Shown here: positions 7,798 to 34,114 of the stretch, piece after piece
Layout: each line of letters starts with the position of its first letter
How positions within the stretch are numbered: position 1 is the first letter of the stretch
Assembly (NCBI GenBank): GCA_034190875.2
Contig: CM067354.1
Coordinates: 49,747,408-49,811,407, forward strand
Direction of reading: 5' to 3'
Source: Urechis unicinctus
Lineage: Eukaryota; Annelida; Polychaeta; Xenopneusta; Urechidae
Length of the DNA stretch: 64,000 nt
Position numbers and translations under genes: made by a program
The notes under the pieces: generated by a model
Seen by the model: only the letters and a program-made list of their open reading frames with translations
Databases searched by the model: none
What the model was told of the DNA's origin: nothing

Positions 7798-10700
7798 ATG
7801 AGTCCACGCGGATCTCACCACACTGACTCCTCCTCCTCATCATCATCCTCTTCATCAGACAGGTAACACTCCATCATCAGCATCCATATCATCATTATCA
7901 TCATCATCATCATCCTTTTCGTCAGACTCTTTTGTCCATTATGTTCTATAATCATGTATCTTGTATAAACATGGACTTGAAGCACCCTTGCTGATCAGCA
8001 ATTAGATGTTCCCCCGTTCACCACGTGCCCTTCCTTCCTGTGTCAACCAGCGATGACAGCAGCAGTGGCAACTCTAGTTCAGGATCGAGCAGGTCGTCAG
8101 GGAGTCAGTCCGGCGAGAGCAAACACAGCAACTCTTCGGCTGATGACGACCAGAGGCAACTGGACGTGGGGCATGAGGAGACATCAGTAGACAGCCAGGT
8201 AGCTCAGCATCACACTTCACACCAACACCGACTCAGCGATTCCCTCGATGGCTCTGAGAGCGACCATCTCTCTCGCAAGGACAGCATTCGCGCCATCATT
8301 CAAGTGAGTCGGGATGAGATTGCCTGGGTCTAAAGGGGGTGTGGTGGGTTAAGAAGGAAGATCTGTGTAGTCGATGATTTGAGGGAAGACTAGCCAACAT
8401 TGTGGCGTGTGTGAAGAAAGAGGACATAATTGGTTGTGTGGTTTGTTGTAGAAGTGTGGACCTACAGCCTCTTTGAAGAAGGTAGGCCACCAGCTTGTTA
8501 CGATGTTCACACATCGTGCCCCTTATCACGTGTGTCCTGTGGTGTTTTAACCATGGTTTCCTTAAGATGCCATAGATTGTATGGTGTTCTGACCAGGTTT
8601 ATCTTTGATGCTCTAGGGTCTTTGTCGGTAGGTTAGTCCGTTGACAAAATGTTTGCACAATGCACTCCTTCGAATGATCAGATTTGACGCAACCTTCTGC
8701 TGTTTAAATGGATCACCATGTAGAGACTGTTCCATTTCCTTTTGTGTCTTTAACGTCTGAGGTATTGCTCCTGGTCTGTTAATGGTTACCTCTTTGTTTG
8801 TGTGTACCACAAGTCCACGTGTTAGTGAGCAGTTAAACCCTTTACTCACTCACTCACCCTAATGAGCTGTCATAAGGCCATTGATGATAGTTTACTTGTC
8901 CTGTTTCCTCCTTTTGCGCTTTTACCAAATTGTTATCGAGTTACATCAGAGATTTAGTAATGTTAGAGGCTGGTTTTTTCTAAAGTAAGTATTCTTGTAA
9001 GTAAGAATTTGAAAACTTCCTCTTGTAGCTCTCATCCAAATTAATCAGTCATGATATATAGTCCCGTCCCTGGAGGTAGACCTTATGCGGAGGGTGTGTG
9101 TTAACTGTGATGTTGCAGTTAGCAGCACAGCAACCAGATCTCTATGGGATCCGACGGTCTGTGAGGCAGCGTAAGGAGGTTGACCGCTTCAACGCGGGCA
9201 ATGTGAGTAGCAATTACCTCTACATCTGGCACCAGGTTGCCGCTAGTGTTAAGAGACGTTATACTCAAGCATCCGACTGACTCCTTTGTCTTCCAACCAG
9301 GGTCTTAGGCCATGATTTGAAAACTGTCCGTCCATCCACACCCCAAACCCCGTCCATCACGTTATGACCAACTGTTTATCATAACGGGGTATGTTGGCTT
9401 TAGTGAACGTTATGATGTTACTTCATGATAATATCATGATGGCACTCTTTGAATCGCTGATTATATCATGTGTATTTCAAGTTACCGTAATTGTCTCGCT
9501 ATCAGACAGAATGATTCAATGACAACATGATCATTCATTGATGAAAATGCTTTAAAGTCACCGCGACGTGACAGCAGTTTACACTGCAGCACTTTCCTTG
9601 CACATCACCCTTATGGCGATTATGACAGTTGCCACAACGTTATCCTGCTTTGGCACAAGCGGAAGCAGACATTTCTGATTCTCCAGTCAACCGTGCACAA
9701 TTTATGTCACCCTTCTATTTGGCATTATTCTTACAAACCTCGAACATATTGTGTATCATTTTAGAGAAGGTATAACATGGACTGGGGCCTTGTTTTGCGA
9801 GGAGGCAAAGCTGGTCGTAACTTCATTCACCATCGTCAAAGTATTATGATTAAATCCAATGCGTCATAAAAAGCTTTATCGAACAGAACAGTATTTATTT
9901 TGATCATAGACGAGCAGCCAGCGTGCTGCGTCGCTGTTTGACTTTAAATGAGCTGTTTATACGGGCTTGGGTTATTCCTTGTATCCGGCCTGGGAGGCAC
10001 GGCGGGTGGGCGGGCTTTAGGGAGAAATTCCAGCCCATCCAAATCAACAACTCACCCGTCCAATGGACTGGTGGACGGGTCCCTGGCTATGACCCTGCTT
10101 TCCACCATATGCCTTCCATGTTTACCCCTTTGATTTGTATTTTAATTGTTTTCCAATGGTATACTTTGTTTATTATATTGGATGAGAAGAATATTGGATG
10201 AGAAGATATTGGAAGTTGTGATTTGTAGCGCCTATGTTTGTGGTTGGACAGGAGTCGGACAGTGATGACAAGCCTCAGAGAAGAGGAAGAAGTGGGCCAG
10301 GGAAGGGTGCCAGGTACTTTCCCATCAATGTACCCATCCTCAAACATAAGATCAGCTTACCTGGGTTAGCCTTGAGAAGCCAGTAGTATGACCATGTGAA
10401 CCACCATTGTCTGTGTTGTAGCGGCAGCTGGGAGGAAGGAGCATCAGGCAGCAGTGATGGTGAAGTCAGTGAGGACTACCATCCCGCATCAACAGCGGTT
10501 CGCAAGAGACCCACCAGGTACAATCAATAACTTATTAGTGGACCTGTGGGTGAATTTTTGTCGCACCAATGTGTTTTAGGGCACTGGTGAGGCGAAATCT
10601 CGCACACAAATTAGTGACGTGCGCTATTGTCGCCCATACCTCCCTCAGCCTCCCCCCCCCCAACTCGCCTCCCCTGAATGATGTTTAATAATAACCTGAT

Positions 10701-11412
10701 TTGCCAAGTTCTAGCCCCCACCTCACCTCGTTCGTCCCCCCCCCCCCCCCCTTTTTTTTTTTATCATAAACCATGAAAAGTTTGTTACCCATGCCAAATG
10801 ATGAATCCCAATCCAGGTCAACTTTCATATTTTATAGTCTGAGCTATCTATGCTGAGATTGTGCCATGTGCTTGAAGACAGGTTAGTTGTTGCTTATGTT
10901 CTGACCAATTTGGATGATTGTAATGTAGTTTTTTCAAAGTGAGTACTGCTTCAAGGTAATTGAAAGCACATTTTGAGACACATTATCATGTCAAATTCAT
11001 TGATATACAAAAGGCCCACTGAATCACCCAAAAGACCCACTCTTCTGTAGTGCAAGGGCCCAGGGCCCACACTTTGAACACAGAGACCATGTCCGAGCAA
11101 AATTCTCCCATCCCTAATAAAGAAGTGGACAAGATTGTAATTGCTCCTTGGTGGTGCAAATTCAATATATATCATATACATTGTCTGTTAAAACCACACT
11201 GGAATTTTTGTTATCAGAACTCAGAGGAACCAGAGAAGCAAAGCCCGGCCGTCTGGACAGAGACCGGCCACGATGAGTCGTCGCAAGCGGCTCTCTGAGA
11301 CGACCAGCGGTTCTGGTTCCTCGAGCAGCTCGGAGCAGTCGAGTTCAGAGGAGACGTCTGACGATGACAGGAGGACAAGCTCGCGTCGAAATAACACTGT
11401 CAAGAAAGTCAG
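7798..11412 (+). CDS. CHD1: CHD1 exons 1-6: acidic, serine-rich N-terminus (residues 1-252)
   Basis: Exons are 7798-7862, 8051-8303, 9119-9202, 10252-10313, 10422-10517 and 11218-11412. Exon 1 encodes a start followed by a run of ten serines, and exon 2 continues the Ser/Asp/Gly-rich stretch typical of CHD1 and CHD2 N-termini. Exon 3 carries a [12 protein letters not shown] motif closely like the YGVRRS-type element of CHD2. Exons 4-6 alternate acidic serine patches with basic runs. Exon 1 joins exon 2 in phase 2 to make a serine codon. The low complexity makes exon edges here less certain than in the catalytic part, but all phases agree. Confidence 0.85.
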
Positions 11413-33200: not shown

Positions 33201-34114
33201 TGGTGACCTGCACTGTGAGGTAGTCATTACTTATCAGCGGCCACGCGCCAGCCGCGCGACACAACGAGAAGTCGCCATCAAACGTCCGCAAATGAGGGTC
33301 CCCGTAGAATAGACAGAGTTGCTGAGGTTGCTTGCCGTCGTAGGAACACACAGCCTGATATGGGGGTGTTGGCGTGTCGGGCACCTGGACAGGATGGAAC
33401 ACCTCGCCCTCTGCCGTGCAATTACTCTCCTTCATGCGTTTCGATATCACTTTCTCCATAGAGTGGAAGTTAAGATCGCCTCGGCATGGGCGCGTCATGT
33501 TACGCATACACAAGTTGAAGGTACGCAGTGCGATGCATCGGCGACGCACGTCATCCTCGGTCGGGTTCGACGTTTTCTCGGGGCCGAAGTGCTCGTCACG
33601 GACACCCAATGTGTTCTCGGCTTGTATGTAGAGATTCCAACAGGTGTCTGAGCGCGTGTCACAACCCGAGTCGGTCGAACCCTGACCGAGCAGCTGAGAC
33701 GAAGCTGGACACATATATCAAAGATCTTAGTGCTACAGCACTTAGGACAGCACGAAAAGTTGATTCTAGTGAGGATGAATTAAAAAAATTCAAGTGGTAC
33801 GAACATGGTGATAGGTGCATGGTGATATGAATCACACACGAGCAGATACGAAACTGGAGCTCAATATGTTATGTTAAATAACAACGACTTGTTACAACCC
33901 AGAATCCATATTGCACTCGAGACTTATCACCAGCCCGATTACATTAAATTACACTACAGGTAATCTAATGACATAGCGATATGGACATACCTGTATTGTA
34001 AAGGAGACACATGGCTAGCGTGAAGAGGAGGATGGCGGAGGGCGGGTAGGGAGTGAAGGCGGAGGGCTGGGGTAGCAGTCGGCCGGACGTGGAGCCGGTC
34101 AGCTGGCGTTCCAT
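29451..34114 (-). CDS. RGM: Repulsive guidance molecule (RGM), three coding exons, ~476 aa, apparent frameshift in exon 3
   Basis: RGMs are cell-surface glycoproteins that act as BMP co-receptors and neogenin ligands in axon guidance and signalling. The coding exons are 33991-34114, 33157-33704 and 29451-30210. Diagnostic features are a signal peptide, an N-terminal cysteine-rich domain with CRGDL (RGD at 116-118), and YGDPHLRTFDGDF with the autocleavage site GDPH (176-179). AGAWPLISNDYLTVQVT follows, then a C-domain with HVDIYLRYINTT, GRYFSLAISMP, MQLCMRGCP and FYDSCVLDLMLSGDVNTT. N-glycosylation sequons are frequent. Human RGMs are about 430-450 aa. The first two joins are in frame (phase 1, then 0). 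Exon 3 needs a one-base correction near 29958 to remain open. Family assignment is certain; the start and C-terminus are less so. Confidence 0.93.
31188..31319. repeat. G-rich minisatellite, ~32-bp unit, four copies, in RGM intron 2
   Basis: GTGAACGTCAGGGCGGGAGC recurs at about 31189, 31221, 31252 and 31284, with GGGAAGGNGTGG between copies. The copies are nearly identical. Confidence 0.9.
31435..31715. repeat. Degenerate ~38-bp minisatellite in RGM intron 2
   Basis: Units of the form GTGACGTTACCTCACTGACA followed by AAATGCAGTAG repeat imperfectly about five to six times; the best copies lie between 31560 and 31715. Confidence 0.75.
32119..32297. repeat. GA microsatellite in RGM intron 2
   Basis: A GCGA/GAAA-rich lead-in from 32119 passes into a nearly pure GA run from about 32200 to 32296. 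The long Arg-Glu and Leu-Ser frames read across it are artefacts of the repeat. Confidence 0.97.
33157..33704 (-). CDS. RGM: RGM exon 2: N-domain, RGD and GDPH cleavage site
   Basis: This 548-nt exon encodes residues 42-224. Cysteine spacing (RRRCIALRTFNLCMRN, PCRGDLNFHS) matches the helical N-domain of RGMs that binds BMP ligand. The von Willebrand-D-like part starts at LCLFYGDPHLRTF. Cleavage at Asp-Pro of GDPH is known for the family and the residues are intact. The acceptor is TGTGTCCAG, the donor ACGGAG|GTGAGT, phase 0. Confidence 0.93.
33991..34114 (-). CDS. RGM: RGM exon 1: start and signal peptide
   Basis: ATG at 34114-34112 (context GGGGACATGG) begins a 41-residue exon. Its end, SAILLFTLAMCLLYNT, is a hydrophobic signal core, with likely cleavage just into exon 2. 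The donor is ACAG|GTATGT, phase 1. Other ATGs upstream (34127 and beyond) open an overlapping frame out of register that does not give a signal peptide. The frame upstream of 34114 is open for some distance, so a longer N-terminus is possible. Confidence 0.75.

Follow-up and report, generated by a model that had tools for sequence, protein, structure and literature searches.

The window analysed here is a 64,000 bp stretch of contig C13 (C13:49,747,408-49,811,407) that contains a CHD1 gene on the + strand and an RGM gene on the - strand, and the two genes are adjacent and convergent with no recognised gene between them. CHD1 is an ATP-driven nucleosome remodeller, while RGM is a glycosylphosphatidylinositol-anchored BMP co-receptor and a ligand of neogenin. 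C13 has a length of 79.6 Mb and represents 6.7% of an assembly of 1.19 Gb in 926 contigs. Seventeen large contigs were inferred, 15 of which (C1-C8, C10-C12 and C14-C17) measure 44-91 Mb, while C9 is counted among them on the strength of a match at 49.2 Mb; contigs C18-C20, C925 and C926 measure 10-61 kb. The flanks of the window, 200 kb in total, have a G+C content of 40.5%. The tail-to-tail arrangement of CHD1 on the + strand and RGM on the - strand had been proposed in the initial annotation of this DNA, and it was confirmed by the Pfam domains of the two genes, by their stop codons and by the ATG of RGM.

The CHD1 gene extends from 7995 to 22785 on the + strand. Its conserved exons run from a serine-rich N-terminus, first recognised by eye in the frame 7,995-8,333, to a stop codon at 22,783-22,785, with the blocks between the domains assigned by eye. 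The tandem chromodomains are encoded at 11745..12728, in frames 11745-12005 and 12507-12728 (Pfam Chromo; expectation values (E) of 7.7e-9 and 4.7e-11, respectively). They are followed on the same strand by the SNF2 ATPase exon at 14106..14507 (Pfam SNF2-rel_dom, E of 2.9e-43), the Helicase_C exon at 16055..16249 (Pfam, E of 1.4e-13) and the CHD1-like_C exon at 20569..20751. The Pfam domain order along the + strand is two chromodomains, SNF2, Helicase_C and CHD1-like_C, such that the CHD1/CHD2 remodeller domain set is complete in one candidate gene, whose exons were joined by order and spacing. The last open frame, which ends at 22,785, has no Pfam match and was assigned from its position and composition. 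Comparison of the SNF2 exon with structures in the PDB identified a CHD1 chain as the top match (9ear_W; E of 1.4e-60), followed by the Chd1 chain 3mwy_W (E of 1.8e-38), and CHD2 chains were absent among the best 60 of the 75 structure matches listed for this exon. The gene is a candidate single pro-orthologue of both CHD1 and CHD2.

The RGM gene comprises three exons on the - strand, with limits that are splice-site readings from the sequence, made without transcripts. Exon 1 (33991..34114) contains the start codon and a hydrophobic signal-like segment, both recognised by eye; the longer frame surrounding it (33965-34279) has no Pfam match above the cut-off. The ATG lies at 34,114, the end coordinate of the interval given in the initial annotation. 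Exon 2 (33157..33704) encodes RGM_N, a YGDPH motif and the start of RGM_C, and its 5′ end was placed at the one of five AG candidates that enters the RGM frame. Exon 3 (29451..30210) encodes positions 55-237 of the RGM_C profile and terminates in the stop codon at 29,451-29,453, and a hydrophobic C-terminal tail is visible by eye. Both RGM_N and RGM_C score above their Pfam cut-offs, and RGMB chains were the best structure matches for all three RGM frames tested. A GDPH-type cleavage motif is present, and the YGDPH of the RGM gene aligns with FGDPH of an RGMB chain. RGM_C is not carried by one uninterrupted frame: profile positions 55-143 fall in frame 29,794-30,294 and positions 149-237 in frame 29,451-30,194. 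The reading frame of exon 3 shifts between ~29946 and ~29927, where the intervening bases are too few for an intron. This frame change may be an assembly error, an allele or a real change, and the gene is still classed as RGM on its domains.

The stop codons of CHD1 and RGM are separated by 6,665 bp (22786..29450), a stretch in which none of the ten scanned frames has a Pfam match at E ≤ 0.01; nine of these ten belong to the 49 frames listed for the gap, and the other 40 are shorter or nested. No Rfam family reaches its gathering threshold in the window, and no transfer RNA was found there by a bacterial-type scan. A ranking of frames by coding score was also silent in the gap, a weak negative since most of the gap formed part of its background. 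A gene between CHD1 and RGM was rejected on the Pfam result for the ten scanned frames and on the Rfam result, and the initial annotation had likewise recognised none. The poly(A)-type hexamers nearest the gap edges are located at 23544 (+) and 28970 (-), with 5 and 8 such hexamers in the gap. A functional coupling of the two 3′ ends, through overlapping transcripts or shared termination, could in principle keep the genes tail-to-tail, and the convergence seen here is matched in both human pairs as these are described in part of PMC6370684. In contrast, the nearest hexamers would leave ~5.4 kb between the ends of the CHD1 and RGM transcripts, a distance taken from hexamer matches alone, and such coupling appears very unlikely.

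CHD1 and RGM look single copy because the assembly has no match to CHD1-like_C, RGM_N or RGM_C outside these two genes. At E ≤ 0.001, profile searches of the 1.19 Gb placed CHD1-like_C in the exon described above as its sole match and RGM_N at one position, while the three RGM_C matches are all exon pieces of the same RGM gene; extra copies of either gene, as represented by these three families, were thereby ruled out at this threshold. The proposal that the pair is unduplicated is upheld by this one genomic place each for RGM and CHD1-like_C.

A genomic regulatory block, in which control elements of RGM would lie within introns of CHD1 or in the 6.7 kb between the stop codons and CHD1 would be a bystander, was considered as a cause of the lasting adjacency. 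In general terms, the published bystander model is suited by a locus where a chromatin gene in broad use adjoins a gene for developmental signalling. In addition, the 5′ side of RGM comprises ~27 kb without a recognised gene, where none of the 11 scanned frames, from 46 listed, has a match. On the other hand, in the one related measurement, CTCF-like motifs occur in the window at the chance rate (36 observed versus a mean of 33.05 in shuffles), and an insulator signature was rejected on this count. A regulatory block is possible rather than probable, and it is compatible with the inheritance of the pair from an ancestral neighbourhood, the explanation that is favoured below.

The chromosomal context of the pair was assessed with seven markers, FAM174A/B, MEF2A/C, IQGAP1/2, LIX1, POLR3G, ST8SIA2/4 and SLCO3A1/4C1, which we take to reside at human 15q26 and 5q13-q21 alongside CHD2-RGMA and CHD1-RGMB. 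Four of the seven (FAM174, MEF2, IQGAP and OATP) have a place on C13, one is elsewhere and two were not found. FAM174 (PF06679) occurs only on C13, at 37.14 Mb, and the IQGAP-type RasGAP_C, a domain presumed to mark IQGAP, likewise occurs only on C13, at 51.03 Mb, which is 1.25 Mb from the CHD1-RGM pair. An exon on C13 at 9.69 Mb is the strongest of 22 MADS rows and was identified as MEF2 by eye; among the remaining 21, a single row was inspected, and it does not represent MEF2. Of the four placed single markers, FAM174, MEF2, IQGAP and LIX1, the first three are on C13, with a rough probability of ~0.001 for three or more by chance. OATP/SLCO-type transporters gave 110 matches in at least 21 hand-merged sites, 11 of them on C3 and one on C13. 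The C13 site is an array on the - strand (C13:49,672,870-49,707,718; L010-L014), whose near end and the first CHD1-like frame are ~48 kb apart; one of 21 OATP sites would fall 85 kb or less from the pair with a chance of ~0.0035, with both the calculation and the span chosen post hoc. The pair therefore shares its chromosome with other genes of the vertebrate paralogon, a linkage that supports descent from one ancestral neighbourhood.

Further observations concern these families and the remaining neighbours. The 21 MADS-box rows other than the MEF2 exon are above the cut-off (E of 3e-6 to 4e-4) and are dispersed over many chromosomes (e.g. C7:10350243, C10:32515821 and C17:9708592), and eight of the 22 rows belong to frames whose length is precisely 312 or 343 residues, as if a MADS-like domain were carried by a repeated element. 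Within the OATP array, L011 holds 5,000 unknown bases. Outward from the pair on the CHD1 side, the first frames encountered are proline- and glutamine-rich and have no Pfam match above the cut-off (L016-L017), and a LOTUS (OST-HTH) domain gene (L015:7186-7404, - strand) is located between the OATP array and CHD1. On the RGM side, the next recognised gene is represented by pyroglutamyl-peptidase-like exons on the + strand at 60956..61585, where the first frame matches Peptidase_C15 (E of 1e-7) and the second matches only PgaPase_1 at 0.0032, below the cut-off; a cyclophilin gene (L018) lies beyond it, outside the window. Long AT and TG dinucleotide repeats are present on the 5′ side of RGM, at 35259-35418 and 60294-60595 of the window. 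Elsewhere, two near-alike open frames (L025:8179-8829 and L009:3376-3954) resemble, by eye, the packaging ATPase of a virus-like endogenous element.

Pairs of this kind are mostly already described in other animals, namely vertebrates and a hemichordate, and the observation made here is real. The human CHD2-RGMA (15q26.1) and CHD1-RGMB (5q15) loci are presented in part of PMC6370684, which cites Severyn 2009, as adjacent, convergent and paralogous, so that the tail-to-tail orientation given for both in the initial annotation is in print; the same source states that these loci are conserved with mouse and chicken. Part of PMC10605842, citing Camus and Lambert 2007, states that chd genes have been conserved next to RgmA and RgmB in vertebrates and records a chd-Rgm cluster in the hemichordate Saccoglossus kowalevskii. 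In trout, slco3a1a, fam174b, chd2, rgma, lysmd4 and nr2f2a fall within one paralogon, as given in a section of PMC7693511, and a 2.95 Mb human 5q deletion has CHD1, ST8SIA4, RGMB and FAM174A as its four protein-coding genes, as given in a section of PMC6552940. No report of a CHD-RGM pair in a protostome was found in searches confined to an open-access library, and a word search of the main text of PMC8851819 returned neither CHD1 nor RGM. A chance juxtaposition in this species, unconnected with the vertebrate pairs, might be considered, given that gene order is heavily shuffled across such times and that one genome is read here. However, the same two single-copy families are found in the same relative orientation with linked paralogon markers, and the hemichordate cluster reported in the consulted part of PMC10605842 also opposes a coincidence, which we regard as scarcely credible.

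Simple inheritance from one ancestral neighbourhood, followed by its later duplication, is very probably the correct explanation of the pair. An old CHD1-RGM tail-to-tail pair would descend from a chromosome of early animals on which MEF2, IQGAP and FAM174, and probably an OATP-type transporter, were present as well. The vertebrate whole-genome duplication would then have copied this neighbourhood into CHD2-RGMA and CHD1-RGMB, leaving RGMC/HJV without a CHD1/2 partner, and all known CHD-RGM pairs would share a common descent. CHD1 and RGM act separately, each in the known role of its family, and they would most likely have stayed adjacent through passive inheritance on a chromosome whose gene order changes slowly. 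Control elements of RGM in or across CHD1 may perhaps have helped, with breaks between the two genes selected against, although any such regulatory cause is conjectural. The initial annotation had likewise proposed an ancestral pair duplicated in vertebrates. The unduplicated pair found here, the published paralogous pairs, the hemichordate cluster and the three of four markers on C13 agree with that proposal, and the bilaterian depth assigned to it would follow if the animal is a protostome.

Several points weigh against this explanation. A segmental rather than a whole-genome duplication is given for the human pairs in the consulted part of PMC6370684, and we infer the whole-genome origin instead. 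In Ciona, part of PMC10605842 describes a linkage of Rgm with Dnajb5, and the position of chd is not stated there. The seven markers were hand-picked from the human map, with NR2F, LYSMD and MCTP left out, and the chance figure attached to them is rough. LIX1 is located on C17, away from C13; its human relative is at 5q15. LIX1L is placed at human 1q21 in part of PMC6370684. POLR3G and the sialyltransferase (ST8SIA) have no match in the assembly, a result that is uninformative because no control matched. FAM174 and MEF2 are 12.6 Mb and 40 Mb from the pair, respectively, which constitutes linkage and not local order. The count of OATP sites is a lower bound, with 80 of the 123 candidates scored, and the OATP structures matched are of types 1 and 2 only, such that the class of the array is not separable.

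Cytochrome oxidase I had no match in the assembly, although the same search scored in 8 of 14 control genomes, and the mitochondrial genome therefore seems absent from the assembly. Molluscan haemocyanin had no match either, in the assembly or in any control, and a gastropod origin is not supported. Deuterostomes usually possess several sialyltransferases, so that the missing match for this family makes a protostome slightly more likely, a weak hint given that no control matched. If the genome analysed is that of a protostome, the CHD1-RGM pair predates the protostome-deuterostome split. A more extended proposal under the same condition is that the OATP-CHD1-RGM block, with IQGAP, FAM174 and MEF2 on its chromosome, would be bilaterian and held together by RGM elements in CHD1, with CHD1/CHD2 as a bystander, in which case disease-linked deletions could affect RGM control. 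We put this forward as a rather unlikely combination. If the genome is that of a deuterostome, the window adds little beyond the hemichordate report. The locus can serve as the unduplicated counterpart of a neighbourhood present twice in vertebrates, which includes the human epilepsy gene CHD2, and the added linked markers tie the CHD1-RGM pair to one ancestral chromosome. Its importance would be greater if a regulatory cause were shown: some human deletions remove CHD2 and RGMA, as reported in parts of the literature, and others remove RGMB and part of CHD1, as reported in the consulted section of PMC6552940.

The arrangement described here can be compared with three known systems. In human CHD2-RGMA and CHD1-RGMB, as in this genome, the same two families are adjacent and convergent, whereas human holds two copies of the pair versus one here. 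Saccoglossus kowalevskii resembles the present genome in possessing a single invertebrate Rgm clustered with chd, as far as the cluster is described in the available part of its report. The PDI/RhoGDI microsynteny, as outlined in part of PMC5722932, is similar to CHD1-RGM in that two genes paired since early in animal history gained further copies through the duplications in vertebrates. In contrast, PDI and RhoGDI point in the same direction and are reported to be co-expressed and to interact as proteins, according to the same part of PMC5722932, while CHD1 and RGM are convergent and are known here from sequence alone.

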